The position numbers were made by a program, and so were the translations under genes. Source: Deltaproteobacteria bacterium (GTDB lineage Bacteria; Bdellovibrionota_B; Oligoflexia; Oligoflexales; Bog-1112). Taken from it: a DNA stretch of 59,474 bases. The DNA is taken from positions 1 to 59,474 of the forward strand of contig JACPKR010000019.1 in NCBI GenBank assembly GCA_016186945.1, given 5' to 3'. This document shows, in pieces, positions 4,858-59,474 of this stretch (positions are counted from its first letter, which is position 1; the number at the start of each line of letters is the position of its first letter). Below the pieces are notes generated by a model. It was not told where the DNA came from, searched no databases, and saw only the letters and a program-made list of their open reading frames with translations.

Positions 4858-5003
4858 GTAATGCGTAAGCCACTTGGGGCAAGGAGGTGGTTTGGAGGAA
4901 ACTGCGCAGCTGGTTCCTCCAAGAAAAATCTATGGGGGAGCGACCCTTCGCTTTGCTCAGGGCAGGCTTTTCCCTCGCCCCCCCAAACCCCCCTCTCCCT
5001 TTT
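4858..5003 (+). repeat. B + C repeat block (copies B1 and C1)
   Basis: Begins with GTAATGCGTAAGCCACTTGG, the same 25-bp arm that forms the terminal inverted repeats of the element at 58105-58249, but here only the left arm is present. It continues into B (GGAGGAAACTGCGCAGCTGG and its inverted partner TTCCTCC) and C (TGGGGGAGCGACC ... CCCCCAAACCCCCC). An open frame runs through the block into the downstream lipoprotein, but the lipoprotein's own signal peptide starts at 5082. Confidence 0.8.
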
Positions 5004-16545: not shown

Positions 16546-16881
16546 ATGAAACCATCTTGGCTCCTAGTTCTTTTTCTTGCCATTTCCTGCAAGGAAAAGA
16601 CGGAAGAGGACAAACCCTACTTTTACACCACAGAAGAACAGAAGCTTCTCAAGACGCGAAAAGAAAAATGCGAAGCCGACCCCAAGATGCACTTCAGTGA
16701 TAGCTCGGAAACATGCGTGGATATCCTTGAGCGAGAGAAGAAGCAATGCGAAAGCCAGAAAACCACAAAATGGGATGAAGAAAAGCGGGAGTGCGTGTCC
16801 GACCCTGTCGCAGTGGACGTTCTCAGGGAACGTGAGTGCATTAGAAAAGGCAAAACGTATTCCGACGGCTTCTGCCAATAA
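16546..16881 (+). CDS. Small Cys-rich lipoprotein
   Basis: ATG 16546 follows AAAAAAGGAC and gives the lipoprotein signal MKPSWLLVLFLAISC. The mature part is about 95 residues, strongly charged, with Cys in a repeated pattern: C-x8-10-W-x5-C-V then C-x4-K-x-Y-x-D-G-x-C. The same arrangement occurs in the N-terminal half of the LRR lipoprotein at 41696, so they share a small disulfide module. The longer upstream frame is not needed. The next element is a family A repeat that begins at the stop codon. Confidence 0.65.
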   Translation: MKPSWLLVLFLAISCKEKTEEDKPYFYTTEEQKLLKTRKEKCEADPKMHFSDSSETCVDILEREKKQCESQKTTKWDEEKRECVSDPVAVDVLRERECIRKGKTYSDGFCQ

Positions 16882-16883
16882 CT

Positions 16884-17016
16884 ATAGTATTTGGGAAAAA
16901 GAATTTGTGGAGAGGACCTTTTTTGAAAAAAAGTTCCCCTCCACACCTCCCCCCAAAAAACTTTAAATACTGAAGTTTTTGAAAAGGGGGTTGGGGAAAT
17001 ATTTTTTTCAAAAAGG
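16884..17016 (+). repeat. Family A repeat, degenerate plain-core form (copy A2)
   Basis: Starts at TAGTATTTGGGAAAAAG, directly after the lipoprotein stop. The core is the non-palindromic type (CTCCCCCCAAAAAACTTTA), and the right side decays after TTTTTTTCAAAAAGG. It may serve as a terminator between two genes on the same strand. Confidence 0.75.
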
Positions 17017-17092: not shown

Positions 17093-19492
17093 GTGAGGAC
17101 TTATCGTTTCATTTCAATTGCTTGCTTTCTCCTCCTTTTTTCTTGCGCTAAGGAGGAAAAACCCGAAACACGGGGAAAAGTCCATACAACAAGATTAGCC
17201 CCTGACCAGCCTACCCCGACACAAACACCAGAGGATAAGCAGGAAGTAGAAGAGGCAGAAACTGCGCCGCAAGAAGAGGAACCCGAAGAAGCAAAGGCAG
17301 ATCTATGCTCGGATCTTTCAAAGAACAAGCCTGCCGCGAACGGGACTTGGGCGAAAGAAACAGCCAACCCCCAAGAAACAGTTCAAGGCTCCTGCAAAAC
17401 CGACTATGTCGGAGACCTTTCCATAACATGCTCAGAAAAGGGGTGGGGTGAGATAACGGGAGTTTGCGCCTTCAATGGATGCGTCGACTTGAGCACCAGC
17501 AAGCCTCTCACCAACGCAGCCTGGCAAAGTAATCTTGCTGGCATAGACACCTCTGTCAACGCTACATGTAACTCTGGGTATCAGGGAACTCCGTCTGTTC
17601 AATGCAAGGAAGATCGAACTTGGGGCAACATCAGCGGAGGATGTACCCCAGAAGGCGCCTCACAGTGCGTTGACCTTACAAAAACCCGACAAGTTCCCAA
17701 CGGCGCATGGCCGAAAAACATGGAAAGTTCAGATTGGGGCGGCACTATAAACGGAACCTGCAATGAAGGATATAATGGAGATCCTTTTGTCACCTGTATA
17801 GATGGCACATGGTCAGAAATACATGGTACATGCGCACACGATTGCACCGATCTGGCAGCGAAAAAACCTCCTCCTGCACATGGCGTGTGGCTCGATGACT
17901 CGACCAATTCAGGCGCAACCGTTCCAGGACAGTGTCTGACAGAAGAAGGTTACCAGGGTAGTTTTTTCATCTCCTGTGAGGATGGAACTTGGGGAGATTC
18001 CATCGTAGGTGGTTGCACACCCGTCGGACAACAAGCATGTGTGAACCCACCACCCATCACGAATGGTTATTGGGGAAAACAGACAGCCGAATGGGGAGAG
18101 TCCCTACAGGGCCAATGCAACCCAGGTTTCTGGAGGGAGACGAATCCAACTGTGTCCTGTAAAGACGGAGTCTGGGAACCAAGCGAGATTGTGGTGCCAT
18201 GCGTGGCAGGTTGTACGTTTTCATCCCTTCCCGTCAAAGCAGGTCTGACCTGGCCGTCAAGTGACACCGGCACTCCCGCTGTCGAAGCGGGAAGATCCCT
18301 TACAGGTACTTGTGATGCAACTCAAGATTATCAAGGAACCCCCACCGTTAGCTGCCTTTTCAACCAAGGCTGGGGCACAGTCGCCGGAGCCTGTATCCAA
18401 GGGGACAAAAAATGCGACGATCCCCCTGAGTCAGGTATAGCGGGATTTCTTTCGTGGTCCGCTACGCAGGCTGGATGGGGCGAAGAGATCACTGGGAATT
18501 GTATCAACGAGTTCTATAGATGGGAAGGACTGAAAGCAAGTTGTAACTCCAACTTATGGACCATCTCTGGTTCATGTATGCCAAAATACGATCTGGCAGA
18601 GGGCGTTTATACCATCAAGCAATCCAGCACAATGCGAAATCTTCAGGCTTATACAGACGGCGATGCTCTCCATTTTTTCCATGCGTTCACCAGAACGCCT
18701 GTCGATTCGGACAACAGCCAACGCTGGTATTTGAAGTGGGTTCCTAACGAAGAAAACACGTACTATCTCAAACAAGTGTCGACGAACCGATACCTTGACG
18801 CTCACATCAACAGCAGAGACAACCTGGTTGTGACCAGAGATGGGACAACCGTTAATAGGAAATTCAAACTTATTCCCGTTGCTGGAACCAATCCCGCTGC
18901 CTTTGAAATTCAACAGGTGGCGTCAGGTTATTACTTAGATGCTTACGAAAATTACAACCACCTGTGGCAGGTCTATTTAACCACCGACTCATCTGGAAGC
19001 CATGTCGAATGGACCCTACACAATTATAATCAGTTGAATGGCACGTATTCTCTCAAACAAGTAAGTTCTAAAAAGTGGCTTGATGCTTGGACGGATTCCT
19101 CGCATGATTACCGAGCTGTGTTAAGTGGTTCAAGCCAAACTGATGGGACTCAATCGTGGTTCGATTCGACAAGCGGCGGCGGCGGCGACGACGTCCGTAA
19201 GACAATTGCGCAATACGCTGGCAACCTACTCATAGACTTCAATCGCAGGGGGCTCGTCGCGTACCTGTCCGGCTCTATGAAGGTAGTGACAAGGACGTCC
19301 CAGTCGGGTTCTAACGAGAACGGACAGTATTGGCAGACGGAGACAATAGTAGCTTCGCCCTGGAAGGGTAAAATAAAAAACTTAGCCAATAACCGCTACC
19401 TCACCGCTTGGGACACTGACTTCTTCGCGGCCGTCATGCGAAACCGCCAGAGCAATACATCGCAACACTGGATCGTTCAGAAAGTCCCCTAA
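17093..19492 (+). CDS. Large lipoprotein: seven CCP-like Cys modules plus beta-trefoil repeats
   Basis: GTG start behind GAGGGG. The lipoprotein signal ends LLLFSCAKEEK, then an acidic Pro/Glu linker (to about 70). Residues about 72-500 hold seven modules, each with four Cys and the pattern C-x-D-L ... NG-x-W ... G-x-C-x-x-G-Y-x-G ... C-x-x-x-x-W-x-x-x-x-x-x-C. This looks like complement-control (sushi) modules. Residues about 505-799 carry four or five repeats of Y-x-L-K-Q-V-S-x-x-x-Y-L-D-A ... Q-x-W, as in ricin-type or fascin-type beta-trefoils that bind sugars. It is probably a surface adhesin or lectin. The stop overlaps the opposing gene by 4 bp. Confidence 0.8.
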   Translation: MRTYRFISIACFLLLFSCAKEEKPETRGKVHTTRLAPDQPTPTQTPEDKQEVEEAETAPQEEEPEEAKADLCSDLSKNKPAANGTWAKETANPQETVQGSCKTDYVGDLSITCSEKGWGEITGVCAFNGCVDLSTSKPLTNAAWQSNLAGIDTSVNATCNSGYQGTPSVQCKEDRTWGNISGGCTPEGASQCVDLTKTRQVPNGAWPKNMESSDWGGTINGTCNEGYNGDPFVTCIDGTWSEIHGTCAHDCTDLAAKKPPPAHGVWLDDSTNSGATVPGQCLTEEGYQGSFFISCEDGTWGDSIVGGCTPVGQQACVNPPPITNGYWGKQTAEWGESLQGQCNPGFWRETNPTVSCKDGVWEPSEIVVPCVAGCTFSSLPVKAGLTWPSSDTGTPAVEAGRSLTGTCDATQDYQGTPTVSCLFNQGWGTVAGACIQGDKKCDDPPESGIAGFLSWSATQAGWGEEITGNCINEFYRWEGLKASCNSNLWTISGSCMPKYDLAEGVYTIKQSSTMRNLQAYTDGDALHFFHAFTRTPVDSDNSQRWYLKWVPNEENTYYLKQVSTNRYLDAHINSRDNLVVTRDGTTVNRKFKLIPVAGTNPAAFEIQQVASGYYLDAYENYNHLWQVYLTTDSSGSHVEWTLHNYNQLNGTYSLKQVSSKKWLDAWTDSSHDYRAVLSGSSQTDGTQSWFDSTSGGGGDDVRKTIAQYAGNLLIDFNRRGLVAYLSGSMKVVTRTSQSGSNENGQYWQTETIVASPWKGKIKNLANNRYLTAWDTDFFAAVMRNRQSNTSQHWIVQKVP

Positions 19493-21660
19493 TCTCCTTC
19501 CCCCAAAGGTGACGCTAAACTCTGAAGTCGTGTGAGAGCCGGAAGCTTTGCCTCCGCTTCACCGAGATGCCTTACACTCCAAGTCAAGCCTCCCCAGAAT
19601 TGAAAGGAATAGACAAGAACAAGCCCAGCGCCTGCAGCTCCCAAGTCCCCCTCGCGAACAGAACTCAGAAGGTACAGAACACTTGCGACAGAAACAGCAC
19701 CCGACAGCAAAGCTATACGCAGCATAAACCACCGGTTGAGCAGGACCATTCCCCACTGTGCTTTCTGGAAGTTTCGATATGCTGCGTAAAATTCATCGGC
19801 CGCAAGATGCGCGAGGGAGGCAAAGCTTTGAGCCTTATAGGTGAAGTACAAATTTCGATACCTGACCAAAGCCTGACGGTAACGCTTCTGCGCGAAATGG
19901 AAGAAAATGGCAGTAGGGACGATTAAAAAAAGAAGTTGCGGAAAAAAATAAAGTACCACGCAGAACGATAAGCTCACTATGAATGCTGACCGCACGGAAG
20001 CATTGAGCGAGCGAGGAAGAGCGTTCAGTACGATATTGAAGTCCGAGGAAAAACGACTGAGACGCGCACCCATCGGCTCTTTCTCCGTGTCGCTTGTGTT
20101 GACAAGCCCTGAGACCGCTCGGGTAAAAACGTTCTTAGCGACTCGCAACGCCAGATGTCTCCACACCATCTGCTGCCATCCAAAGAAACCTAAGGCAAGC
20201 AATCCCAGCACAAAATAGGAAACTAAGGCGAGTCTGTCGTTCTCCAACTTAATAAAATGTGAGATGACACCATGTTGTCCAATCGGCAGCATACTCGCGC
20301 CTAATGTTACTAGAACGGTGCCCACTCCCAAGAAAAAAGCACCTCTTTTTTTGTGATTTGCCTCCCAAAGCCAATCGAGGATTCGCTGTCGCTCTCTCGG
20401 GGGAGGCGACGCTTCACTCGCTCCCCGAACCCCCCTCTCCCTATTATTAGCGATGGTTCCCTCGCCCCCCCTCTCCCTATTATTAGCGACGGTCCTATTT
20501 ATGGCGGAAAAAAAGGTGTAAAGACGTTGCGCACTGACTTTCGACGCAGTCAGGTTACGGAGTTGCAAACCTAATTTTGTGAAGGGTTGCTCAATCGTGA
20601 CAAATAATGACAAGCAGGTAAAGACAAGCGGGGCGTCGAGTTTTTCATTTGCGAAATAGAGCAAGGCAAATGTTGTAGCCGCCAGACAAAAACTGGTCCC
20701 CATTCCAGCCATATTGGTGAACGCTTCCGCGAGAGCGAGCCGACGTCTTAAGCCTATTTCTTCGTCTAAGACCTGAGCTGCTTTCGTGCTTAGCTGTTCC
20801 CCTTTCAACGTCTGCTTGTCTCCTCCCTTAATTAGGTCTGCTAAAAAAGTGAGACGCTTCTCACTCTTTTGCAGCGTTTCCCGTTCCAGATGTCCCATCC
20901 GTCGGGATAGAAACTGGTAGAGGGGGAAAAGCATCAGCAGAACAAGAAAAGAGCCGACCGTCCACAAACCGATATGTGTCGCCAGGATCAGAAGCGTTCC
21001 CGCAATCAACAGCAAGCCATGCGCCAGTTCCAGGGCCACCCAGAAAGCATCGGCGACATTCTCCACATCTTCCGACGCATGGACTTGGACAGGGCCTGCG
21101 ATGTTTTGCGTTTCTTTCTGCCCCATTGTGTAAAGTTTGTGGAACAAATTGCAGGTGACGAAATGCGACGCCCTCTGTACGCCTCGGAAGGCGAAGACGT
21201 AATATGATTGCATGAGTGCAACTTGCAGGAACTGGAGAGTCACAAGACCCAACGACAGAACTAAGGGGAAGGACGACGCGGGTGTCGGCTCACTAAACTC
21301 GGTGAGCAAACGATGGAGAACCATAGGAGTGAAAAGCTGGCAGGCAAACAACAAAGCCAGCAAAAGCGACATGACCAGCGTTTCATGTTTCGTCTGAAGG
21401 AAAAGAGCTTTCCAAAGTTTACGTGTTGAGGACCAATCTACCCAAACTTCTGTATCTTTTATATAGCCTTTGAGAAAAAGAATTTGTGGAGAGGACCTTT
21501 TTTGAAAAAAAGTTCCCCTCCACGCCTCCCCCCAAAAAACTTTAGATATTGAAGTTTTTAAAAAGGGGCTTGGGGAAATAACTTTTTTCAAAAAGTTTTT
21601 CCCAAAATTGATTATCTTGAATACTATACCAACCTGGGATCGAGGGGGCAGCTCACGCAT
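19489..21660 (-). CDS. ABCC-like exporter with two membrane domains and no ATP-binding domains
   Basis: ATG 21660 overlaps the clpA stop (ATGCGTGA), suggesting coupling to clpS-clpA. The protein has two ABC-type six-helix membrane domains (about residues 95-390 and 450-700). TMD1 shows the order FRGVQRASHFVTCNLFHKL; TMD2 ends GGLTWSVRHLGEAEAKL, the usual lead-in to an NBD in ABCC exporters. No Walker A, signature or Walker B motif occurs: the first NBD site is replaced by a translated C repeat (20393-20495), and the chain stops where the second would begin. A family A repeat (21461-21628) is also translated near the N-terminus. Both insertions keep the frame. It may be a true NBD-less membrane protein or a recent ruin. 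Confidence 0.72.
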   Translation of the reverse strand: MRELPPRSQVGIVFKIINFGKNFLKKVISPSPFLKTSISKVFWGEAWRGTFFQKRSSPQILFLKGYIKDTEVWVDWSSTRKLWKALFLQTKHETLVMSLLLALLFACQLFTPMVLHRLLTEFSEPTPASSFPLVLSLGLVTLQFLQVALMQSYYVFAFRGVQRASHFVTCNLFHKLYTMGQKETQNIAGPVQVHASEDVENVADAFWVALELAHGLLLIAGTLLILATHIGLWTVGSFLVLLMLFPLYQFLSRRMGHLERETLQKSEKRLTFLADLIKGGDKQTLKGEQLSTKAAQVLDEEIGLRRRLALAEAFTNMAGMGTSFCLAATTFALLYFANEKLDAPLVFTCLSLFVTIEQPFTKLGLQLRNLTASKVSAQRLYTFFSAINRTVANNRERGGEGTIANNRERGVRGASEASPPPRERQRILDWLWEANHKKRGAFFLGVGTVLVTLGASMLPIGQHGVISHFIKLENDRLALVSYFVLGLLALGFFGWQQMVWRHLALRVAKNVFTRAVSGLVNTSDTEKEPMGARLSRFSSDFNIVLNALPRSLNASVRSAFIVSLSFCVVLYFFPQLLFLIVPTAIFFHFAQKRYRQALVRYRNLYFTYKAQSFASLAHLAADEFYAAYRNFQKAQWGMVLLNRWFMLRIALLSGAVSVASVLYLLSSVREGDLGAAGAGLVLVYSFQFWGGLTWSVRHLGEAEAKLPALTRLQSLASPLGEGD
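20393..20495 (-). repeat. C repeat, tandem form, inside the ABC-like gene (copy C3)
   Basis: Two direct copies of CCCCTCTCCCTATTATTAGC lie in tandem, preceded by a G-rich stretch with GGGGGAGGCGACGCTTCAC. They are translated without a stop as a linker rich in Asn, Arg, Glu and Gly (VANNRERGGEGT, then IANNRERGVRGAS), at the position where NBD1 of a full ABCC transporter would lie. Confidence 0.8.
21461..21628 (+). repeat. Family A repeat, plain-core form (copy A3)
   Basis: Complete copy: AAAAAGAATTTGTGGAGAGG at the left, core CTCCCCCCAAAAAACTTTAG, right arm GGGGCTTGGGGAAATAAC and GATTATCTTGAATACTATA. Its ends are TATAG and CTATA. Read on the minus strand it codes for about 55 residues without a stop, inserted after codon 10 of the ABC-like gene. 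Confidence 0.85.
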
Positions 21661-23977
21661 CTGCGAGAGCGTGAACTTGGTAGTCGAAGCTAAGCTGGTC
21701 ATTTTTGCAATCGACTTTCACGAAGCCACCTTTCGTCAAGTTTCCGAAGAGTAACTCGTTGACCAGGGGAGTTTTGACTTTCTCCTGTATGATGCGGGCG
21801 AGGGGACGCGCTCCGAAGGCAGGGTCGAACCCTGTTATTGCAAGGTAGCGACGCGCTTCGTCTGTAACTTCCCACTTTACTTTCTTAGATTTGAGTTTTA
21901 TTTCAACTTCCTTTAGGAACTTGTCCACAATTTTTAAGACAATGTCCTCAGGTAGGAAACCGAACGAGAGAACTGCGTCGAGTCGGTTTCGAAATTCAGG
22001 GGAAAATGCTTTCTGTATAGCTATCTTCTCTCCCCCTGCTTTATTCGCATTCCTATCGAAGCCGATCAAAGTCTGGCTCAGTTCCTTGGCTCCAACGTTG
22101 GTCGTCATGATGAGGATGACGTTTCGGAAATTAGCTTCCCGTCCGTTGGCATCTGTCAGCGTCCCGTGGTCCATAATCTGCAAAAGGATGTTATGGACGT
22201 CGGGGTGTGCCTTCTCTATCTCGTCGAGAAGCAGCACCGCGTGGGGGTACTTGTGAACGGCATCGGTCAAGAGTCCTCCTTCATCGTATCCTACATAACC
22301 GGGAGGGGCACCGATTAAGCGAGAAACGGTGTGCCGTTCCATATATTCGCTCATATCGTAGCGCAGAAATTCAATGCCGAGCTGTTGTGCCAGTTGCTTT
22401 GCCAGCTCGGTTTTTCCCACGCCTGTTGGGCCGGAGAAGAGGAAATTGCCGATCGGTTTTTCATCATTCCCCATCCCCGAGCGAGCCATGCGAATTGTAG
22501 AGACAAGGGTTTCAATGGCATGGTCCTGTCCGAAGACGTGGGCTTTCAGCTTCCTGTCGAGGTCTTTCAACGCGCGTTTGTCAGAGGAAGTAACAGATTC
22601 CGCAGGGACTCGGGCAATCTTCGCGACAATCTTCTTGACGTCGATAAGGGAGATGACCCGTTTCGGTGTATCTTTAGAAGCTTTTGCGGAAAAGTGTGCT
22701 CCGACTTCGTCGATCACGTCGATAGCCTTATCAGGGAGCTGTCGGTCCTTTATGTAGCGTGCCGAAAGTTCTACCGCTCCTCGCAGGGCTTCGTTCGTGT
22801 ATGACACATTGTGGAATTTCTCGTAATGCCGTTTTAATCCATGGAGGATTTTGACTGTTTCCTTTTCGGAAGGTTCGTCGATTGTAATTTTCTGAAACCT
22901 TCTATGGAGGGCATGATCCGTTTCGAAGTGCTGACGAAATTCCTTATAAGTTGTAGAACCTATGCAACGGATTTCACCTGACGCGAGGAAAGGCTTGAGG
23001 ATATTCGACGCATCGAGAGTCCCACCACTGACGGCTCCCGCACCTACAATGGTGTGGATTTCGTCAATGAAGAGGATGGCCCTGTCTATTTTCTTAACGG
23101 AACGGATGAGTTTCTTTAATCTTTCTTCAAAATCTCCGCGATATTTCGTCCCTGCCAGTAAGGCTCCCATGTCAAGAGAGAAGACGGAAGCATTTTTCAA
23201 GCTGTCAGGTACCTTATCCTCAGCTATGCGTGAGGCTAAACCTTCTGCAAGAGCGGTCTTACCCACACCTGAATCACCAACATAGAGCGGGTTATTTTTT
23301 CTGCGTCGGCATAGGACCTGGATCGTGCGTTCGATTTCGTTTTCTCGGCCTATGAGGGGATCTATTCTTCCTTCCCTTGCTTTTTCCACTAAGTCTTCTG
23401 CATAAAGAAAGAGGGCATCGTTCTTGTCAATTTTCTTTTTCGTTTTCTCGACGCTTCGTTCTTTAAGTTCCTTGTACGGTGAGTCCTGGGGAGCAATCAG
23501 CGCGTTTTCCGTCAAATTGTCAACGAGAGCTTGATCTACACCCTCCTTGATCACTCCATGAGAAATAAAGTTAACGACGTCGTATTGCGATATATTTTGT
23601 TTTTCCAGGAAATAACTCGCGTAGGTTTCTTTTTCTGCAAAAATGGCGACTAGTACAGAGTCGCCGTAAATTTTTTCCTTTCCGGCCGAGAGAACATGCT
23701 GTGCGGCTCGCCTGATCACTCTCTGGAAGCTCAACGTAGGCTGGGGTGACTCACTGGGGGGTAGGATATCTTTTTCCAAATGGCTGTCGAAGTAATTACG
23801 CAAGTCTTCATAGGTTTGCTTGACAGAACCGCCGCAGGCAAGGATCACTTTCATATAGGCGGCATCTTGCAGAAGAGCGAAGAGAAGGTGCTCGACGGTA
23901 AGGTATTCATGACCGTACTTCTTGGCTTCTTCTATGGCCAAGTTGAGGCTGACTTCCAACTCTGGGCTTATGATCAT
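21653..23977 (-). CDS. clpA: ATP-dependent Clp protease ATP-binding subunit ClpA
   Basis: Unfoldase that feeds ClpP. Clp N-domain (EEAKKYGHEYLTVEHLLFAL at the start), first AAA+ module with GDSGVGKTALAEG and LFIDEIHTIVGAG, second with GPTGVGKTELAKQ and LLLDEIEKAHPD, then the D2 small domain ending near FDPAFGARPLARIIQ. It lacks the long middle domain of ClpB, and clpS sits just upstream, so ClpA is the right subfamily. Length 774 is normal. SD GAAGGGGG precedes the ATG. The stop overlaps the ATG of the next gene. Confidence 0.97.
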   Translation of the reverse strand: MIISPELEVSLNLAIEEAKKYGHEYLTVEHLLFALLQDAAYMKVILACGGSVKQTYEDLRNYFDSHLEKDILPPSESPQPTLSFQRVIRRAAQHVLSAGKEKIYGDSVLVAIFAEKETYASYFLEKQNISQYDVVNFISHGVIKEGVDQALVDNLTENALIAPQDSPYKELKERSVEKTKKKIDKNDALFLYAEDLVEKAREGRIDPLIGRENEIERTIQVLCRRRKNNPLYVGDSGVGKTALAEGLASRIAEDKVPDSLKNASVFSLDMGALLAGTKYRGDFEERLKKLIRSVKKIDRAILFIDEIHTIVGAGAVSGGTLDASNILKPFLASGEIRCIGSTTYKEFRQHFETDHALHRRFQKITIDEPSEKETVKILHGLKRHYEKFHNVSYTNEALRGAVELSARYIKDRQLPDKAIDVIDEVGAHFSAKASKDTPKRVISLIDVKKIVAKIARVPAESVTSSDKRALKDLDRKLKAHVFGQDHAIETLVSTIRMARSGMGNDEKPIGNFLFSGPTGVGKTELAKQLAQQLGIEFLRYDMSEYMERHTVSRLIGAPPGYVGYDEGGLLTDAVHKYPHAVLLLDEIEKAHPDVHNILLQIMDHGTLTDANGREANFRNVILIMTTNVGAKELSQTLIGFDRNANKAGGEKIAIQKAFSPEFRNRLDAVLSFGFLPEDIVLKIVDKFLKEVEIKLKSKKVKWEVTDEARRYLAITGFDPAFGARPLARIIQEKVKTPLVNELLFGNLTKGGFVKVDCKNDQLSFDYQVHALADA

Positions 23978-25956: not shown

Positions 25957-26041
25957 CGACGTTTCCTAATGAGTTCCCTACAATTCCATCATACGTTTCT
26001 GTCCGCTTTGCGGTCACCGGGCAACATATGCACGATTTCTT

Positions 26042-26092
26042 GGAGGAACCAGCTGCGCAGTTTCCTCCAAACCACCTCCTTGCTGCCTTGCT
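26042..26092 (-). repeat. Family B repeat, GGAGG subtype (copy B2)
   Basis: Reads GGAGGAACCAGCTGCGCAG then TTTCCTCCAAACCACCTCC, an interrupted palindrome centred on CAGCTGCGCAG. It lies in the divergent region between motA and the HTH gene, upstream of the latter's putative promoter. Confidence 0.8.
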
Positions 26093-29034: not shown

Positions 29035-29082
29035 AGCAAGGAAGGGAGTTTGAGGGAAAACTGCGCAGCTGGTTTCCCTCAA
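29035..29082 (+). repeat. Family B repeat, GAGGG subtype (copy B3)
   Basis: GCAAGGAAGGGAGTTTGAGG then AAAACTGCGCAGCTGGTTTC and CCTCAA. Same sequence as copy B4 at 31309. It separates the YheT gene from ubiD. Confidence 0.8.
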
Positions 29083-34930: not shown

Positions 34931-35077
34931 ACTATGGTATTCAAGATAATCAATTTTGGGAAAAACTTTTTGAAAAAAGTTATTTCCCCAAGCCCCTTTT
35001 CAAAAACTTCAATATCTAAAGTTTTTTGGGGGGAGGCGTGGAGGGGAACTTTTTTTCAAAAAAGGTCCTCTCCACAA
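34931..35077 (-). repeat. Family A repeat, plain-core form (copy A4)
   Basis: Inverse orientation of A3: GTATTCAAGATAATCAATTT, core TAAAGTTTTTTGGGGGGAGG, then GGTCCTCTCCACAA. It ends right at the upstream edge of the TPR-like gene and seems to have replaced that gene's signal peptide region. Confidence 0.85.
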
Positions 35078-35114
35078 GATTCTTCTCTTCACGCAATGCG
35101 GGAAGGAAAGTCTG

Positions 35115-37180: not shown

Positions 37181-37352
37181 CACTATTGTATTTGAGAAAA
37201 AGAATTTAAAGAATTTAAGGATTTGGGAAAAACTTTTTGAAAAAAGTTATTTCCCCAAGCCCCTTTTCAAAAACTTCAATATCTAAAGTTTTTTGGGGGG
37301 AGGCGTGGAGGGGAACTTTTTTTCAAAAAAGGTCCTCTCCACAAATTCTAAA
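37181..37352 (-). repeat. Family A repeat, plain-core form with extra end (copy A5)
   Basis: Starts CACTATTGTATTTGAGAAAA followed by a duplicated AAAGAATTTAAGGATT, then the inverse plain-core element down to GGTCCTCTCCACAAATTC. The extra left segment looks like the other terminus of A, so this copy is a rearranged form. It fills the space between the convergent AarF and barrel genes. Confidence 0.8.
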
Positions 37353-38669: not shown

Positions 38670-38681
38670 AGCTCCCCCTTA

Positions 38682-38868
38682 GTGTTCAAGATAATCAATT
38701 TGGGGACAAACTTATACGAGTCTGTCATCCCGCGGCTTGACCGCGGGATCCAACTTGTTCGAGGAAGGCTGCCTGATTGGATCCCGCGGTCAAGCCGCGG
38801 GATGACAGTGGAGGGGATTTTTTTCAAAAAAGGTCCTCTCCACAAACTCTTTTTCCCAAACACTATAA
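38682..38868 (-). repeat. Family A repeat, palindrome-core form (copy A6)
   Basis: GTGTTCAAGATAATCAATTT, two inverted copies of the GATCCCGCGG/CCGCGGGATGAC palindrome, then GGTCCTCTCCACAAACTC and CACTATA. It lies just upstream of mlaE, so it cannot only be a terminator. Together with the left end of the IS605 remnant it fills the gene-free stretch 38670-38999. Confidence 0.85.
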
Positions 38869-38999: not shown

Positions 39000-39350
39000 C
39001 TAAACGGGAGTATCTTGGTTGGCAATGTATAGCTTTAGGATAGTCAATGGGGATCCTCCGCAAGATACGAGACAGTAAGTCCGACTCCAAAAAACAGGTT
39101 TCCAGTAAAATTTCTTTAAATGTTGGGCAAAATTTTTTCGTGTCAGGCGTGATGTCACGGTTTTCAAATTATTAACGAGTTTTGAGGGTTGAACATTCGG
39201 GTTTAAAGAAATCAAAAGATGAACGTGGTCGCTCTCCCCATTGAATTCATGTAAGTGACAATCCCATTTTTTAAGAAGCCTTCCAAACTGTTCTTCAAGG
39301 AATACCAAGAGTTTTTTTGTAATACTTCTTATGCAGATCATCAACCGCAA
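39000..39350 (-). pseudogene. tnpA: IS200/IS605 Y1 transposase TnpA, N-terminally truncated
   Basis: 116 residues against the usual 130-155. The HUH motif is present in GESDHVHLLISLNP, as are LVNNLKTVTSRLTRK and the tyrosine segment ILKLYIANQ. The N-terminal part, usually with a KYR(R/H)xV motif, is missing, and a stop lies three codons ahead of the first possible start (TTG 39350). So it is likely inactive. It overlaps the tnpB relic head to head. Confidence 0.75.
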
Positions 39351-40178
39351 AGTGAATTACAGAATTTATCCGTCGGTAAAACAAAACCATCGGATGTTTG
39401 AATATTTGCGGTTACATCAGAGACTTTATAATTGCGCCCTTGAGGAGAGAATAGATGCATACAAAAAGTGTGGCGTTAATATTAAGTTTAAGGACCAATG
39501 CAAGAGCCTGACTCAAGTGCGTAGCGAAGATCCGGAGTATGCTTGGCTTAATGCTCAATCGGAACAGGTGACGTTAAAACGTTTGGATCTGGCTTTTGAA
39601 ATTTTTTTGGACGTGTTAAAGCGGGAAAAAAGAAAGTGGGTTTTCCCAGATTCAAGGCTTTGTCTAGGTTCAAAGGTTGGGGCTACAAGACGCATGGTGA
39701 TGGGTGAAGCCGAAGACGATGGAGATTTTTAGAAAAGGTGAGTTATGGTTTGCCTCCATAACTTTTTTGACAGAGAGACCTTTTCGAGAATCGGGGACCG
39801 AGGCAATAGGCATGGACTGGGGAACAAGTCGTTTTATGACGATTGTGATTGTCCCGGAAAAAGAAGGGATACAAAGCGGAAGAAGCTGGTATTGTATATG
39901 TGGAAGCACCCACCCGGACGCTAAAGCCAAGCCAGACATGTGCGAAGTGCCATTACAAAATGAAGAAGCAATTATTTGAGCGGGTTCATCACTGCATGAA
40001 ATGTGGGTTCAAGTGCGACCGCGATGTCAATGCAGCCCTTGTTATTTTGCAGTATGCATTAAGCAAAGTATCGGGTCAGGAACTGGCCTTAAGTGTGGAG
40101 AAGGTGCAGGGTGTTTATCTTGTGTCTTTGCTGAAGCACGAAACTCCATTCATACCGCAAGCTGCGTTCAGCAGCTGA
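39331..40178 (+). pseudogene. tnpB: TnpB (RNA-guided nuclease) with two frameshifts and an internal deletion
   Basis: Three pieces in three frames. 39331-39732 holds the N-terminal helical part (RLHQRLYNCALEERIDAYKK). About 39704-39845 holds the RuvC-I region with GMDWGTSRF. About 39849-40178 holds GYKAEEAGIVYVEAPTRT, the zinc finger CAKC ... CMKC and RuvC-III CDRDVNAALVIL. The roughly 130 residues that normally lie between RuvC-I and the zinc finger are gone. The gene cannot make an active nuclease. Confidence 0.8.
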
Positions 40179-40862: not shown

Positions 40863-40867
40863 AGAGA

Positions 40868-41060
40868 TATAGTATTTGGGAAAAAGAATTTGTGGAGAGG
40901 ATCTTTTTTGAAAAAAAGTTCCCCTCCACTGTCATCCCGCGGCTTGACCGCGGGATCCAATCAGGCAGCCTTCCTCGAACAAGTTGGATCCCGCGGTCAA
41001 GCCGCGGGATGACAGACTCGTATAAGTTTGTCCCCAAATTGATTATCTTGAACACTATAG
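40868..41060 (+). repeat. Family A repeat, palindrome-core form (copy A7)
   Basis: ATAGTATTTGGGAAAAAGAA, the two inverted GATCCCGCGG palindromes, then GTTTGTCCCCAAATTGATTA and CACTATAG. Both ends carry TATAG/CTATA, the clearest example of the TA-type termini. Confidence 0.85.
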
Positions 41061-44933: not shown

Positions 44934-44948
44934 TCTCTAGCTCCCTAT

Positions 44949-45134
44949 GGTGTTCAAGATAATCAATTTGGGGATAACTTTTACAAGTCTGTCATCCCGC
45001 GGCTTGACCGCGGGATCCAACTTATTCGAGGAAGGCTGCCGTTGGATCCCGCGGTCAAGCCGCGGGATGACAGTGGAGGGGAACTTTTTTTCAAAAAAGG
45101 CCCTCTCCACAAATTCTTTTTCTCAAATACTATA
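44949..45134 (-). repeat. Family A repeat, palindrome-core form (copy A8)
   Basis: GTGTTCAAGATAATCAATTT, two inverted GATCCCGCGG palindromes, GGCCCTCTCCACAAATTC and ATACTATA. Its right end overlaps the last codons of the lipoprotein at 45130 and supplies its TAG stop. Confidence 0.85.
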
Positions 45135-46374
45135 TTTGCTGTGAAACTTCCTTTTTCTCCTCTCTCAAACGAAGCAAGTCGGCACCAATTCCATCAAGTT
45201 TGTGCATAAGCTCTCTCTTGGGATCGTCCTCCGCAAGCGCAAGCTGTCCAATGACCTGTATGAGGATGCCCGCTACTATGACCGCAGCGGAAGCAATAGC
45301 GCCCTTGACGGCACCAGACCCGACCTTTTGCCCCCGGATATCTTTTGTCATCCCTTTAACCCCCGTAACGTCGGCTACGCCCTTGGTCCACGCTGAGGAA
45401 AACTCACCGATTTTATTTTTGAGATCGGCTTTCATATCCGCCGTGGCAACGCTTTCGGTCGGCAGAACCTGGACCCATCTCTGTGCACGCGCCTTTGTTT
45501 GTGCCCAACCTGTTCTAACTCCGCCCTCAAGCCCTCCCCACTTTCGCCCCACTTTCGCAGCCCAGGCGGTCCAGAGGGTGACAGCGAGACTAAGGGACCC
45601 TAGGGTTACTAATGTTGCGCCTATCGCTACCACGGGCACGTTTTCAGCAAGCTGCAAGCCTTCTTGCTCTTGCCCCACAGCGCTGCTCATGGTTCTCATA
45701 TATTCATCCATGTCTTCCGAATCATAGTAGGCACCGATAACAAGGGGGTCCATCTTCAGTTGGTTATCGACCATCGTGTCGAAGTCTTCCGTTTCTTCGA
45801 CCAGTCCGAAACTTTCTGCGTTTTCTTTGTAGTCCAGCAAGGCCAGTCTGACTTCCAGTGCCTTGCCCTGGATTTGATCAGACAATCGTTGTTCCGCAAG
45901 GAGGAGTTGCAGGACTTCGGGTGGGTTGCCTCCGCTCTGATTAAAGTAGGTCCAGGCTTCTTTGCTGCAATTTGTTCCTGGCGTTGTCGAACGTTCTGGG
46001 ATGACGCAAGCTTTGTAGGTGACTTTAACGCGCCCCTCTGGGAAGTCGAACTTCGACTCGGGGGTCAGCCCGGTGATACTACCTTCGACGCATGGCCTCC
46101 CTTCGGTGGACAAGGAGCAGGCACTGTAGAAGAGGTAATTGGCTCTCGGATCGAGGCTCGGTACCAGGAGAGCGCCCTTAACCTTTTCTTTCGTGTAAGG
46201 TTCCACTGTCAGGCCAACTTTCAAGTCTGCCGGGTCGACTTTAGGTGCTCCTTCCAGCTTTACTAATTTTTCCTTAGTCTGCTGTACTTTTTCCTTAGCT
46301 TGTTTCTCTTGTCGTTCACGAGCGGTCTGACATGACAAGGACAGGACGATGAGAAAGAAAAGACCGAGCCTCAT
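45130..46374 (-). CDS. Lipoprotein with two internal membrane segments
   Basis: Lipoprotein signal ends FFLIVLSLSCQTAR. A Lys/Glu coiled coil follows (to about 45). Then comes a beta-rich part with four Cys (about 65-150) and a helical part. Two hydrophobic stretches follow: VVAIGATLVTLGSLSLAVTL (about 245-270) and AIASAAVIVAGILIQVIGQL (about 360-382), joined by a Trp- and Lys-rich loop. A lipidated protein with two possible membrane helices recalls pore-formers or export-arm proteins, but I recognise no family. The stop codon is part of a family A repeat. Confidence 0.65.
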   Translation of the reverse strand: MRLGLFFLIVLSLSCQTARERQEKQAKEKVQQTKEKLVKLEGAPKVDPADLKVGLTVEPYTKEKVKGALLVPSLDPRANYLFYSACSLSTEGRPCVEGSITGLTPESKFDFPEGRVKVTYKACVIPERSTTPGTNCSKEAWTYFNQSGGNPPEVLQLLLAEQRLSDQIQGKALEVRLALLDYKENAESFGLVEETEDFDTMVDNQLKMDPLVIGAYYDSEDMDEYMRTMSSAVGQEQEGLQLAENVPVVAIGATLVTLGSLSLAVTLWTAWAAKVGRKWGGLEGGVRTGWAQTKARAQRWVQVLPTESVATADMKADLKNKIGEFSSAWTKGVADVTGVKGMTKDIRGQKVGSGAVKGAIASAAVIVAGILIQVIGQLALAEDDPKRELMHKLDGIGADLLRLREEKKEVSQQI

Positions 46375-47525: not shown

Positions 47526-47760
47526 TCTATCCCCTAAAGGGGATGAGCTTCTAACCTAGGGCTATGCTGTGGGCGATTCCCCGAAAGGAAAACATCCGAA
47601 GATGCTGCTTGCGACGCAACCAAAGCTAGACGACACGGCTCCGAAGAGCCGAGGGGCGAGACTGCCCTACTACTACGGGCCTGAGCTTGCGCTACAACGA
47701 GGTTATTTGCTCCTCGCTGCTTCCTTACGGAACCAGCTCGTAGATACGTGACCAAAGCGG
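47526..47760 (-). ncRNA. Probable omegaRNA (TnpB guide scaffold)
   Basis: The 3' part of tnpB and the right end form a run of stems on the minus strand. The clearest is CGGCTC-TTCG-GAGCCG (47636-47651), a C(UUCG)G tetraloop only in the minus-strand RNA, which argues for RNA selection on that strand. Other short stems lie around 47570-47580 and 47700-47720, and the terminal ATCCCC hairpin follows. omegaRNAs of the family end at the right end of the element, with the guide taken from flanking DNA. Confidence 0.5.
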
Positions 47761-48901
47761 GAAATGCCACCTTCTTACCATACGCCAAGGGAAACATATT
47801 GACGCTGCCGACAACATCGCGATGACCGCAAAAATTACAAGCACGACATCGCCACTCTCGTCCCCTCACCTTTTGCCTATGATCGCACTCGGGACACCGG
47901 CTAGACGTTCCTCGCTCGCCACCGGTGAAGCACTCGATATGCAATGGGGAGCTCTTCTCCTTCAAATATTGAATGTCTTTGCCATATTCCCAACCACTCA
48001 TACGTTGATTGTGTTTGCGACCACAACGGTTACGACGCACCCCGTCAGGATTGCCAACGAACAAGCGTTTCACACCTGCCTGCTGACAGAACGCTATTAC
48101 CTTCCGAGTCCCTTTATGGCGAACGTCACGAATTCTACGCTCGGTACGGACTCTAAGTTTCGCTTTGCAGTGAGATAATTTCTTATGCCGCCTAGATCCC
48201 GGCTTACAACGAGACAGAAGTTTTTGGAAACGACCATGAGCCTTATGGCGACCTTGCTTGAGGCTGCGAATACCTCTCCCGCTTACAATACAACTTTTTC
48301 CTGTGTCGGTTGTCACCGTAGCTTGATGAATCTCGCCCAGGTCCACAGTGGCTAATGCGTCAGCCTTGGTCTGTGGCTTGTTGGATTCGCAGCCGTAACA
48401 CACGTGTAACTCGTAACCACAATTCCAAACGAGCTTCACCGACCCAAATGTGCTTGGAAGTTTTGCTCTCAAAACAAGTGATGGTCTGCCCCGCCCCATC
48501 GGAAGTATAACCTTCCCAACTTCGTAACGAACTGCTTGCGCTGGCCACGCCAGAGGGCGGAAGGTTTTATCCCGCCATGGATACTTCATTTTCATTTCTG
48601 GGTGCCGACGCCGAAGATCACGCGTGGCTTCTACGTTGGCGAGAAAACTATGGCAAATCATCTGAATAGTTTGGCTATGGAGCGCATAGCGCCCCTTGGT
48701 CGCCCTTTGCAGATCGGATTTGGTGGGCCACTTTGTATACTTCCTGCGTGCCTCCAGGTGAAGATCTCGGCACTGGTTCCAAATTCTGCCACCCTCTAGG
48801 CTTCCGTCACGAATGGCCTGGAAGGCTCTTTGTGGAAGAAATCCCAGTGGGATAATCTTGACCCTATCCAATTGCATCCTCTTGAAGTTATGAGTAATCA
48901 T
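47534..48901 (-). CDS. tnpB: TnpB, IS605-family RNA-guided DNA endonuclease
   Basis: Programmable nuclease ancestral to Cas12. RuvC-I Asp lies in ATVDLGEIHQATVTT. The classic RuvC-II Glu site reads LFVGNPDGVRR without Glu, but GGERGTSSRCPECDH offers a Glu just before the zinc finger, as in the TnpB subgroup with a shifted catalytic Glu. Zinc finger: CPEC ... CRAC; RuvC-III: GHRDVVGSVNM. The tail of about 75 residues after RuvC-III overlaps the omegaRNA and is Ser/Arg/Ala-rich. Start 48901 or 48925 (ATG) is possible; the latter overlaps tnpA by 6 bp. Confidence 0.9.
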   Translation of the reverse strand: MITHNFKRMQLDRVKIIPLGFLPQRAFQAIRDGSLEGGRIWNQCRDLHLEARRKYTKWPTKSDLQRATKGRYALHSQTIQMICHSFLANVEATRDLRRRHPEMKMKYPWRDKTFRPLAWPAQAVRYEVGKVILPMGRGRPSLVLRAKLPSTFGSVKLVWNCGYELHVCYGCESNKPQTKADALATVDLGEIHQATVTTDTGKSCIVSGRGIRSLKQGRHKAHGRFQKLLSRCKPGSRRHKKLSHCKAKLRVRTERRIRDVRHKGTRKVIAFCQQAGVKRLFVGNPDGVRRNRCGRKHNQRMSGWEYGKDIQYLKEKSSPLHIECFTGGERGTSSRCPECDHRQKVRGREWRCRACNFCGHRDVVGSVNMFPLAYGKKVAFPALVTYLRAGSVRKQRGANNLVVAQAQARSSRAVSPLGSSEPCRLALVASQAASSDVFLSGNRPQHSPRLEAHPL

Positions 48902-48919
48902 AACGAATGGAGATGATAC

Positions 48920-49339
48920 ATGCAAGAGTCTAAAAATATTTCTTCACACGGCACGACCCGCTGGAGTCATTACCAGATTGCCTACCATTTTGTGTGGATT
49001 CCAAAGTACAGGCGAAAGGTTTTACTTGGTCCCGTGCAGCGGGAAACCAAACGACTTATCTATGAGTGCGCTGAGAAACATGGATTTCGAATCCTTGCAT
49101 TAGAAACAGACGAAGACCACGTCCATTGTTTCGCATCATGCCCGCCTCGTTGGAGTCCTGCAAAAGTCGTAGGCTATCTGAAAGGATACACGTCCCGATA
49201 TCTCAGGGCCGAGTTTCCATGGCTCAAGAAAAAATGCGAAACCAAACAATTGTGGACTCAAGCTTACTACGTGGGCACTGCAGGAAGTGTTAGTCAGGAA
49301 ATTATTCGCAGGTACATCAATGAATGCCAAGGCCTGTAG
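48920..49339 (+). CDS. tnpA: IS200/IS605 Y1 transposase TnpA
   Basis: Single-strand DNA transposase of 139 residues, the normal length. YHFVWIPKYRRKVLLGPVQR at the N-terminus, the HUH metal site in DEDHVHCFASCPP, VVGYLKGYTSRYL, and the catalytic Tyr in EIIRRYINECQ. All key residues are present, so the element may be active. It is divergent from tnpB; their starts overlap or nearly so. Confidence 0.94.
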   Translation: MQESKNISSHGTTRWSHYQIAYHFVWIPKYRRKVLLGPVQRETKRLIYECAEKHGFRILALETDEDHVHCFASCPPRWSPAKVVGYLKGYTSRYLRAEFPWLKKKCETKQLWTQAYYVGTAGSVSQEIIRRYINECQGL

Positions 49340-51104: not shown

Positions 51105-51118
51105 CAAATCGGATTCGT

Positions 51119-51167
51119 TGGGGGAGCGACGGTTCCCTCGCCCCCCCAAACCCCCCTCTCCCTTTTT
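51119..51167 (+). repeat. C repeat (copy C6)
   Basis: TGGGGGAGCGACGGTTCCCT then CGCCCCCCCAAACCCCCCTC and TCCC, identical to C2 over most of its length. It lies between the carbonic-anhydrase-like gene and the next gene on the same strand. Confidence 0.8.
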
Positions 51168-51206
51168 GCCTCAAGCGGCTTGGAGAGTTTCCGATAAAGG
51201 ATAGCA

Positions 51207-57388: not shown

Positions 57389-57457
57389 CAAGCCGCTTGT
57401 GGCTCCCCCGGATTTCATGGAGGACCCAGTGTCTTAACGATACGAAAGTTGGAAACG

Positions 57458-58096
57458 ATGACCCCATCTTCCGCATTGAAAAAGCTAGCTCGTAAACGCC
57501 GCCTTTTGCTGGTGGATGACAACTACGATTTTTTCAAAATGATTAAGTTAGGCCTAGGTGAGCAAGCAGATCTCGATTACGCACCGGATGGATTTTCCGC
57601 GCTCCATATGGTAAAGAAAGAAAACTACGACGTCGTTATATGCGATGTTTTTATGCCCTATTTGGATGGACTAAAGCTGATTGGTGAGTTTAACAAGAAG
57701 CATTTGAATATTCCCTTCATCCTTGTTACCGGTAACCTGGAAGACCAGTTAGCCTCCGATGCTTTGCACGCAGGGGCTTACAATATTCTCGAAAAGCCTT
57801 TTGAACTGAAAGAGCTTATGGAAAAAGTTGAGCTAGCCATTAGCTTGCATGAGTCGGAAAAGGTTGCTTCCCTTAGCGAGCAGGAGAAAGCGCATATTTA
57901 CAACATGCTGAAGATGTTCTACTACGATGTTGAAAAGATCATGCTCTCCATTCAACACTTTCAGATTCCCGTTTCGGGAATACAAAAGGAGATCGAGAAG
58001 AAGAAGCTAACCGGCAAATGCATCTTCGACGATCTGCACAACCTCCGCTATTTCAAACCTGAAGACCCGGAAGAAAAAGGGAATAAGAAGGACTAG
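57458..58096 (+). CDS. Response regulator (receiver plus short helical domain)
   Basis: ATG 57458 is preferred over TTG 57449 (GGAAA upstream). Receiver domain is complete: LLLVDDNYDFF, Asp in VVICDVFMPYLDG, Thr in LVTGN and Lys in LEKPFEL. The C-terminal about 80 residues are helical (QEKAHIYNMLKMFYYDVEKI) with no DNA-binding motif. It could be a single-domain regulator that works by protein contact. Last gene of the signalling operon, 69 bp after the HDOD gene and followed by a MITE-like element. Confidence 0.85.
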   Translation: MTPSSALKKLARKRRLLLVDDNYDFFKMIKLGLGEQADLDYAPDGFSALHMVKKENYDVVICDVFMPYLDGLKLIGEFNKKHLNIPFILVTGNLEDQLASDALHAGAYNILEKPFELKELMEKVELAISLHESEKVASLSEQEKAHIYNMLKMFYYDVEKIMLSIQHFQIPVSGIQKEIEKKKLTGKCIFDDLHNLRYFKPEDPEEKGNKKD

Positions 58097-58257
58097 GGAG
58101 GATTGTAATGCGTAAGCCACTTGGGGCAAATAGGGAGAGGGGGGTTTGGGGGGGCGAGTGAAGCGTCGCCTCCCCCGGGATTTCATGGAGGAACCAGCTG
58201 CGCAGTTTCCTCCAAACCACCTCCTTGCCCCAAGTGGCTTACGCATTACGGAGGATT
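58097..58257. mobile_element. MITE-like element with 25-bp perfect inverted repeats and 8-bp target duplication
   Basis: Element 58105-58249 (145 bp). Left arm GTAATGCGTAAGCCACTTGG plus GGCAA (58105-58129) and right arm 58225-58249 are exact inverse copies over 25 bp. Just outside, GGAGGATT occurs at 58097-58104 and again at 58250-58257, an 8-bp direct duplication. Inside are one C repeat and one B repeat (GGAGGAACCAGCTGCGCAG). It codes for nothing. Without it the convergent genes would be only about 12 bp apart. Confidence 0.85.
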
Positions 58258-58261
58258 CCCA

Positions 58262-59221
58262 CTACACCTTTATTTTCTTGGAGAAATCGTGATGGGTTTC
58301 GATGAAACGGATGGTCCCCGTTTCTGAGCGCATGACAACGGAATGTGTTTTAGCTCCACCTCCGAAGAATTTCACTCCTTTTAGCATAGAACCATCGGTG
58401 ACCCCCGTGGCGCAAAACATGACGTTAGCTCCGGCCAGTTCTTCCATCGTGTAGACTCTGTCAAAATCCTTGATGCCCATTTTACTTGCTCGTTCCCGTT
58501 CATCATCCTTGCGGAAAACAAGCTGGCCCTGGAAATTTCCCCCCACACATTTTAGGGCGGCTGCTGCGATCACTCCCTCGGGTGCTCCTCCTACGCCCAT
58601 GAGCACGTCGACCCCTGTGTCAGGTAGGCTTGTGGCGATAGCGGCTTGAACATCACCATCGCCGATCATCCAGATGCGGGCTCCAGCTTCCCGAATTTCC
58701 GTGATGAGGTCTTCATGTCGCGGGCGGTCCATGACGACGACTGTCAAATCCCGAACGTCACACTTCTTGGCCCGAGCTATGTTCCGCAGATTCTCGGTAG
58801 CGCTTGCATTGAGGTCGATGGCGTCTCGGGCGTCGAACCCAACCGCGATTTTCTTCATGTAGGTGTCGGGTGCGTGGAGGAACTTACCCTCTTCGGCTAC
58901 GGCAATGACAGACAGGGCATTGGCACCGCCTTTAGCTGTAATCGTCGTGCCTTCCAGAGGGTCGAGGGCCAGGTCTAGCTTCGTCGAGCCTTCCTTACGG
59001 TTCCCCACCTTCTCTCCGATGAAAAGCATCGGCGCTTCATCCCTTTCCCCTTCCCCAATTTTCACCGTTCCATCGAAGGCGATCGTGTCAAAGGCCTTGC
59101 GCATTGCTTCCACCGCGGCATGGTCTGCAGCCTTTTCGTTCCCCCGCCCCATCAGCCTTGCCGCTGAAAGCGCAGCCGCTTCACTGACTCGTACAAACTC
59201 CAGTGCAAAATTCCTATCCAT
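58262..59221 (-). CDS. glpX: Fructose-1,6-bisphosphatase class II
   Basis: Gluconeogenic phosphatase, metal-dependent, cytoplasmic. ATG 59221 is chosen (GAAAGG upstream); an upstream ATG at 59245 has no SD. Typical: MDRNFALEFVRVSEAAALSA, DGTVKIGEGERDEAPMLFIG, the metal-binding LALDPLEGTTI, VVMDRPRHEDLI and GVGGAPEGVIAAAALKCVGG. Length 319 is normal. It may also act on sedoheptulose bisphosphate in some lineages. Confidence 0.96.
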   Translation of the reverse strand: MDRNFALEFVRVSEAAALSAARLMGRGNEKAADHAAVEAMRKAFDTIAFDGTVKIGEGERDEAPMLFIGEKVGNRKEGSTKLDLALDPLEGTTITAKGGANALSVIAVAEEGKFLHAPDTYMKKIAVGFDARDAIDLNASATENLRNIARAKKCDVRDLTVVVMDRPRHEDLITEIREAGARIWMIGDGDVQAAIATSLPDTGVDVLMGVGGAPEGVIAAAALKCVGGNFQGQLVFRKDDERERASKMGIKDFDRVYTMEELAGANVMFCATGVTDGSMLKGVKFFGGGAKTHSVVMRSETGTIRFIETHHDFSKKIKV

Positions 59222-59281
59222 GTGGCAACCTTTCGCTTTTGTCATTAAGTTTGAACTTAATTTTTATCAGAGAGCGTAATT

Positions 59282-59310
59282 TGTGGCAAGGAGGTGGTTT
59301 GGAGGAAACT
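59282..59310 (+). repeat. Truncated family B repeat (copy B8)
   Basis: GTGGCAAGGAGGTGGTTTGG then AGGAAACTGC, where the usual GCAGCTGG follow-on is replaced by TGTTGGCT and the tandem palindromes. So the palindrome array has probably inserted into or deleted the right half of a B copy. Confidence 0.7.
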
Positions 59311-59320
59311 GCTGTTGGCT

Positions 59321-59474
59321 AGATCCCGCGGTCAAGCCGCGGGATGACGGAAGCTAGATCCCGCGGTCAAGCCGCGGGATGACGGAAGCTGGATCCCGCG
59401 GTCAAGCCGCGGGATGACGGAAGCTGGATCCCGCGGTCAAGCCGCGGGATGACGGAAGCTGGATCCCGCGGCAT
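59321..59474. repeat. Tandem array of 35-bp palindromic units (runs off window)
   Basis: Four full units and part of a fifth, each GATCCCGCGG-tcaag-CCGCGGGATGAC plus a GGAAGCT(A/G)G joint. The palindrome is the same as the core of family A copies A1, A6, A7 and A8. There are no unique spacers, so this is not a CRISPR array. Confidence 0.9.

Follow-up and report, generated by a model that had tools for sequence, protein, structure and literature searches.

An element between two convergent genes

Towards the right end of the window, by which we mean the whole stretch of 59,474 nucleotides that was analysed, two convergent open reading frames (ORFs) face each other: a response-regulator gene at 57449–58096 on the plus strand, and, at 58262–59245 on the minus strand, a frame whose translation we take to be that of a class II fructose-1,6-bisphosphatase (GlpX). 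Between them, with the response-regulator stop codon 8 bp before it, lies a 145-bp MITE copy at 58105–58249, bounded by perfect 25-bp terminal inverted repeats (TIRs) and by an 8-bp target duplication, GGAGGATT. An earlier sequence-only reading of this DNA had claimed exact inverse arms flanked by an 8-bp direct repeat, and both were verified by direct sequence comparison, with the left copy of the duplication at 58097–58104 and the right copy at 58250–58257. The left TIR (58105–58129, plus strand) starts with GTAA and reads GTAATGCGTAAGCCACTTGGGGCAA, and the right TIR (58225–58249, minus strand) is its exact reverse complement over 25 bp; both were identified by sequence comparison and by a count of arms in the window, where the 25-bp arm matches three times, against 0.00 in shuffles. 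The ends of the arms are GTAATGCGTAAGCC.

The interior is made of two units. The B unit (58130–58178, plus strand), delimited by a 53-copy alignment and by the fold, has a G-rich head, AGGGAGAGGGGGG, and then a hairpin, and is of the 144/145-bp subtype. The C unit (58179–58228, minus strand), recognised through homologous units in two other genera, comprises the head GCAAGGAGG, a hairpin stem, and the conserved loop AACTGCGCAGCTGGT; at its start, four bases of the unit (GCAA) fall within the right arm, at the inner end of the latter (GGGGCAA/GCAAGGAGG). Either strand is predicted to fold into a long arm stem topped by the B and C hairpins, with the heads of the two units pairing with each other, at energies of −91.2 and −88.5 kcal/mol for the two strands (z about −9.5). 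There is no coding gene in the element, only a stop-poor frame. As an observation apart, both 58105–58249 and the consensus are nearly free of stop codons, the consensus having one fully open frame per strand, and some neighbouring ORFs run into MITE copies, such as a methyltransferase-like ORF at 1226–2143 of locus L036.

Minus the element and one copy of the duplication, the two stop codons would stand a dozen bases apart. The same two genes, response regulator and glpX, are convergent neighbours in the congener G001 as well, separated by a gap of about 400 bp that shows no trace of the MITE and is too diverged to provide a base-exact empty site; this gap without the element supports a lineage-specific insertion at this junction. 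Base-exact empty sites sought among the genome stretches examined returned self matches only.

A dense and recently mobile family in the host genome

The host assembly comprises 2.66 Mb in 76 contigs and is 91% complete, and the genome-wide search for the 25-bp arm proposed by the earlier reading returned 221 arms with at most three mismatches. From the stretches around about 100 exact arms we obtained 53 full-length copies, most of them 143–148 bp long with 25-bp TIRs and mostly a few substitutions away from the consensus of their own subfamily, the subfamilies being distinguished by the B-hairpin loop and one of them measuring 169 bp; two internal-deletion forms of 77 bp are also present. 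Extrapolating from the share of paired arms, we estimate that the genome holds about 80 full-length copies, with about 50 partial ones besides. Within the window, the minus-strand copy at 4858–5003 is truncated: the earlier reading had described the arm at 4858 as standing alone, but this arm is in fact followed by a C unit and by a B unit of the long, 169-bp subtype, in an orientation that runs from B to C on the minus strand, and it therefore belongs to a copy whose other, B-side arm is gone. At 51113–51190 (minus strand) the B half survives as a relic whose arm, AAGCCGCTTGAGGCAA, has decayed; this relic is also seen as inverted repeat I13.

The claim that the focal element bears the mark of a recent transposition was borne out by the duplications at other copies, since exact ones flank 23 of the 53 full-length copies (17 of 8 bp and 6 of 9 bp), whereas pairing the left and right flanks of different copies in 2000 shuffles gave a mean of 0.02 and a maximum of 1. 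Four further copies have an 8-bp duplication with one mismatch, and no duplications of 6, 7 or 10–13 bp occur among the 53. Among the 32 copies whose arms have changed little, 19 keep the duplication, and among the 21 whose arms are worn only 4 do, a difference to be expected if duplications are erased with age or through damage to the ends. No clear target-site consensus emerged. Insertion placement, scored with a simple codon-based gene finder, could be judged for 37 copies, about three quarters of which (28) are intergenic, as against about 19% of random window points (81% fall in genes); most of the nine intragenic calls lie within 60 bp of an ORF end. Prokaryotic MITEs are recognised as elements shorter than 500 bp, bounded by TIRs and lacking a transposase gene, with target duplications at independent insertions and with many near-identical, mainly intergenic copies, and this family shows each of these features.

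The family is restricted to this lineage in the material searched: the arm, at up to three mismatches, does not occur in any of 57 other genomes of the phylum, of which one belongs to the same genus and six to the same family; the 20-base arm core has no match in a viral collection, and the whole element has none in plasmid and phage collections. Two public-genome matches to the arm core, in Oscillospiraceae and Actinobacteria, were rejected as chance coding matches that encode MRKPL.

Other repeats of the window deserve separate mention. A second MITE-like family, starting with ATAGTATTTGGGAAAAAGAATTTG and ending with CAAATTGATTATCTTGAACACTATAG, has eight copies in these 59 kb (880–1070, 16880–17014, 21461–21630, 34932–35095, 37182–37350, 38677–38866, 40866–41060 and 44945–45137), and one of its subtypes contains two internal GTCATCCCGCGGCTTGACCGCGGGATCCAA palindromes, so that the pattern of a palindrome family carried within a MITE recurs. 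A tandem 35-bp array of the GATCCCGCGGTCAAGCCGCGGGATGAC palindrome occupies 59283–59474, immediately behind a truncated C unit, and runs off the window. An ABC-transporter ORF (19489–21702, minus strand) contains two to three in-frame B fragments at 20392–20493, which add the peptide NNRERGGEGTIANNRERGVRGASEASPPPRER in a manner reminiscent of the Rickettsia palindromic elements.

The C hairpin occurs independently of the MITE

The earlier reading had taken both the B and the C families to be parts of a non-autonomous, MITE-like element, and this stands in so far as the element is non-autonomous and contains both; it does not stand for C, which also occurs without arms. A stand-alone C unit, found by the repeat search of the window, lies at 26034–26083 (minus strand), and armless C variants at 29035, 31308, 46937 and 51978. 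We counted 401 C cores in this genome. Two other genera of the same family, neither of which has the arm at up to three mismatches, hold 92 and 94 cores, and five further genomes of that family have none. Because C is armless in the window and present as about 90 cores in each of two genera devoid of the arm, it is an independent hairpin family older than the MITE, and the MITE contains a member of it, the reverse of what had been claimed. The B unit, on the other hand, has no match in the relatives and is known from this genome only, where some copies have arms, others have arms that have decayed (51113), and others stand alone (6195 and 40814).

Across its copies, C conserves the head GCAAGGAG and the loop AACTGCGCAGCTGGT, and its stem varies with compensation (TTGGAGGA/TCCTCCAA, TGAGGGAA/TTCCCTCA and TCTGGGGA/TCCCCAGT); the conservation of the loop partly reflects how the copies were selected, because the loop belonged to the search pattern, which was true of neither the head nor the stem. 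In the genome G007, C units cap both ends, facing outward, of non-coding inverted-repeat elements of 290–510 bp (loci L109–L114). These elements contain further long inverted repeats, and, as a separate observation, several C copies in G005 and G007 stand a few tens of bases upstream of a start codon. Rfam covariance models gave no gathering-level match in the window, and elsewhere only spurious weak miRNA matches for the B and C units. With its head GCAAGGAG, C has neither the GTAG nor the CGTC tag of RAYT-associated REPs, and its core was not found in the flanking sequence examined around the best RAYT-like gene of G005.

C is probably a mobile or functional unit, independent and structured. 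As a tentative proposal, in which our confidence is low, its conserved head and loop with a freely co-varying stem might represent a conserved nucleic-acid module not described so far, perhaps an RNA or single-stranded DNA element that binds protein, which unrelated mobile elements acquired either as cargo or as a component of their structure, namely a TIR-type MITE in one genus and the longer C-capped inverted-repeat elements in another.

The enzyme that moved the element

No autonomous element with the same arms, nor a transposase gene flanked by them, which the earlier reading had suggested looking for, was found in this 91%-complete, 76-contig draft, in which the arms flank the MITE interior only; such a partner is usual for prokaryotic MITEs though not obligatory, and a draft of this kind may have missed it. 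Two pairs of widely spaced inward arms, at C16:12175/13202 and C23:14264/16397, were considered as an autonomous element and rejected, each consisting of separate MITE copies with a worn mate. The window does hold an IS200/IS605-type element with a Y1 TnpA and a TnpB-like ORF (47534–49339) and a remnant of another (39000–39732); its Y1 transposases, considered as RAYTs, belong to IS200/IS605.

All intact MITE arms begin with 5'-GTAA, as the IS66 elements of the phylum do, several IS66 loci of which have paired GTAA ends, two of them (L142 and L158) with an 8-bp duplication as well. Published IS66 elements make 8-bp duplications (PMC3281130; PMC12898284), the length of 17 of the 23 exact duplications observed here, the other 6 being of 9 bp. 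GTAA ends and 8-bp duplications together therefore point to an IS66/ISBst12-type enzyme, and from the end sequence and duplication length we infer, with moderate confidence, that such a transposase mobilised the MITE. The IS66 transposase domain (PF03050) has no match in this assembly, but of the 58 genomes of the phylum 32 do have one, the congener and G005 among them; no specific IS66 element matches the arm, the best identity being 11/25 among the IS66 ends examined.

The same MITE could instead have been moved by another DDE transposase with 8–9-bp duplications, for example one of IS256 type. This would suit the mixture of 8- and 9-bp duplications, the latter, at about a quarter of cases, being more frequent than classical IS66 would suggest, and the genome does hold a 133-aa IS256-type N-terminal fragment at C52:32611; however, no arms lie near that fragment, and GTAA is how the IS66 ends of this phylum begin, whereas the ends of IS256, IS6, ISL3, IS1595 and IS1 are not known to start in this way. 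We consider this alternative unlikely.

Far less can be said for a replication of the inner hairpin pair by a RAYT/Y1 transposase, in the manner of a REPIN, with the arms as flanking DNA carried along. The inverted B and C hairpins resemble a REPIN doublet, many C units are armless, and the genome has four Y1 domains, but the duplications lie exactly outside the arms and measure 8 or 9 bp only, whereas Y1 transposition is not known to generate such duplications, nor REPINs to have them; moreover, no RAYT scored above the cut-off in the genome, the weak match being the IS200/IS605 TnpA at 48920, and C is without the GTAG tag. For the armed element this explanation is contradicted and very improbable; for stand-alone C units it may still hold. 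Least credible of all is a host-selected hairpin of convergent genes, acting as a transcription terminator or 3' end stabiliser and merely resembling a transposon, since, for all the very stable fold on both strands and a position 8 bp past one stop codon and near the other, we found no terminator-like site and no support for a promoter or terminator function, near-identical copies stand at unrelated sites with differing duplications, and only 5 of the 37 scorable copies lie between convergent genes.

We have high confidence in the reading as a whole, that is, a genuine, recently mobile MITE served in trans by a DDE transposase, most likely of IS66 type, and carrying B and older C hairpins in its interior. 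Acting in trans, this transposase would recognise the 25-bp arms and cut the target with a stagger of 8 or, at times, 9 bp, which gap repair would turn into direct repeats; since the transposase is not in the assembly, it would have been either lost or not assembled. The interior is a pair of REP-like hairpins, the B and C units, inverted relative to each other. Given that C is also armless here and in two other genera, the MITE may have arisen when arms came to flank C-type hairpin units, which its amplification would then have dispersed further.

Comparison with known elements

MITEs of this kind are known, and the present family appears undescribed. What it offers is a very dense recent expansion, of 221 arms in 2.66 Mb, in a bacterial lineage that has been little studied, with the duplications as proof; a TIR-type MITE that carries an older REP-like hairpin, a route by which one repeat class can disperse another; and, with the transposase absent from the assembly, a family whose engine may be gone.

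The Correia elements (CREE) of Neisseria have TIRs of about 26 bp, a size of about 100–155 bp, a high copy number and a TA duplication; they are similar to this MITE in TIR length, size and copy number, and differ in the duplication, TA versus 8 bp, and in the arms. The IS66/ISBst12 insertion sequences share the GTAA ends and the 8-bp duplication; unlike the MITE, they measure 1.3–3 kb and encode a transposase, and the arm sequence past GTAA differs. REPINs (Bertels and Rainey 2011, PMC3116915) resemble the MITE interior in having two inverted hairpin units, whereas the two units here are dissimilar, have no GTAG tag, and come with no RAYT that we found. QMITE2 of Coxiella burnetii (PMC5896051, as summarised in the review PMC10969869) is a high-copy element of about 190 bp whose truncated copies resemble REPs; in that summary its REP-like pieces are decay products, while C is found in other genera in its own right, and the sequences are unrelated. 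The Chunjie MITE of Geobacter uraniireducens (Chen et al. 2008, likewise through PMC10969869), of 178–235 bp with 38 full or near-full and 57 partial copies, is, in the review's account, gene-less like the present family, with conserved TIRs and direct repeats, dozens of intergenic copies and, in addition, many partial ones; it differs in having another sequence, fewer copies, and, in that same account, no description of a REP-like double hairpin such as the one carried here.
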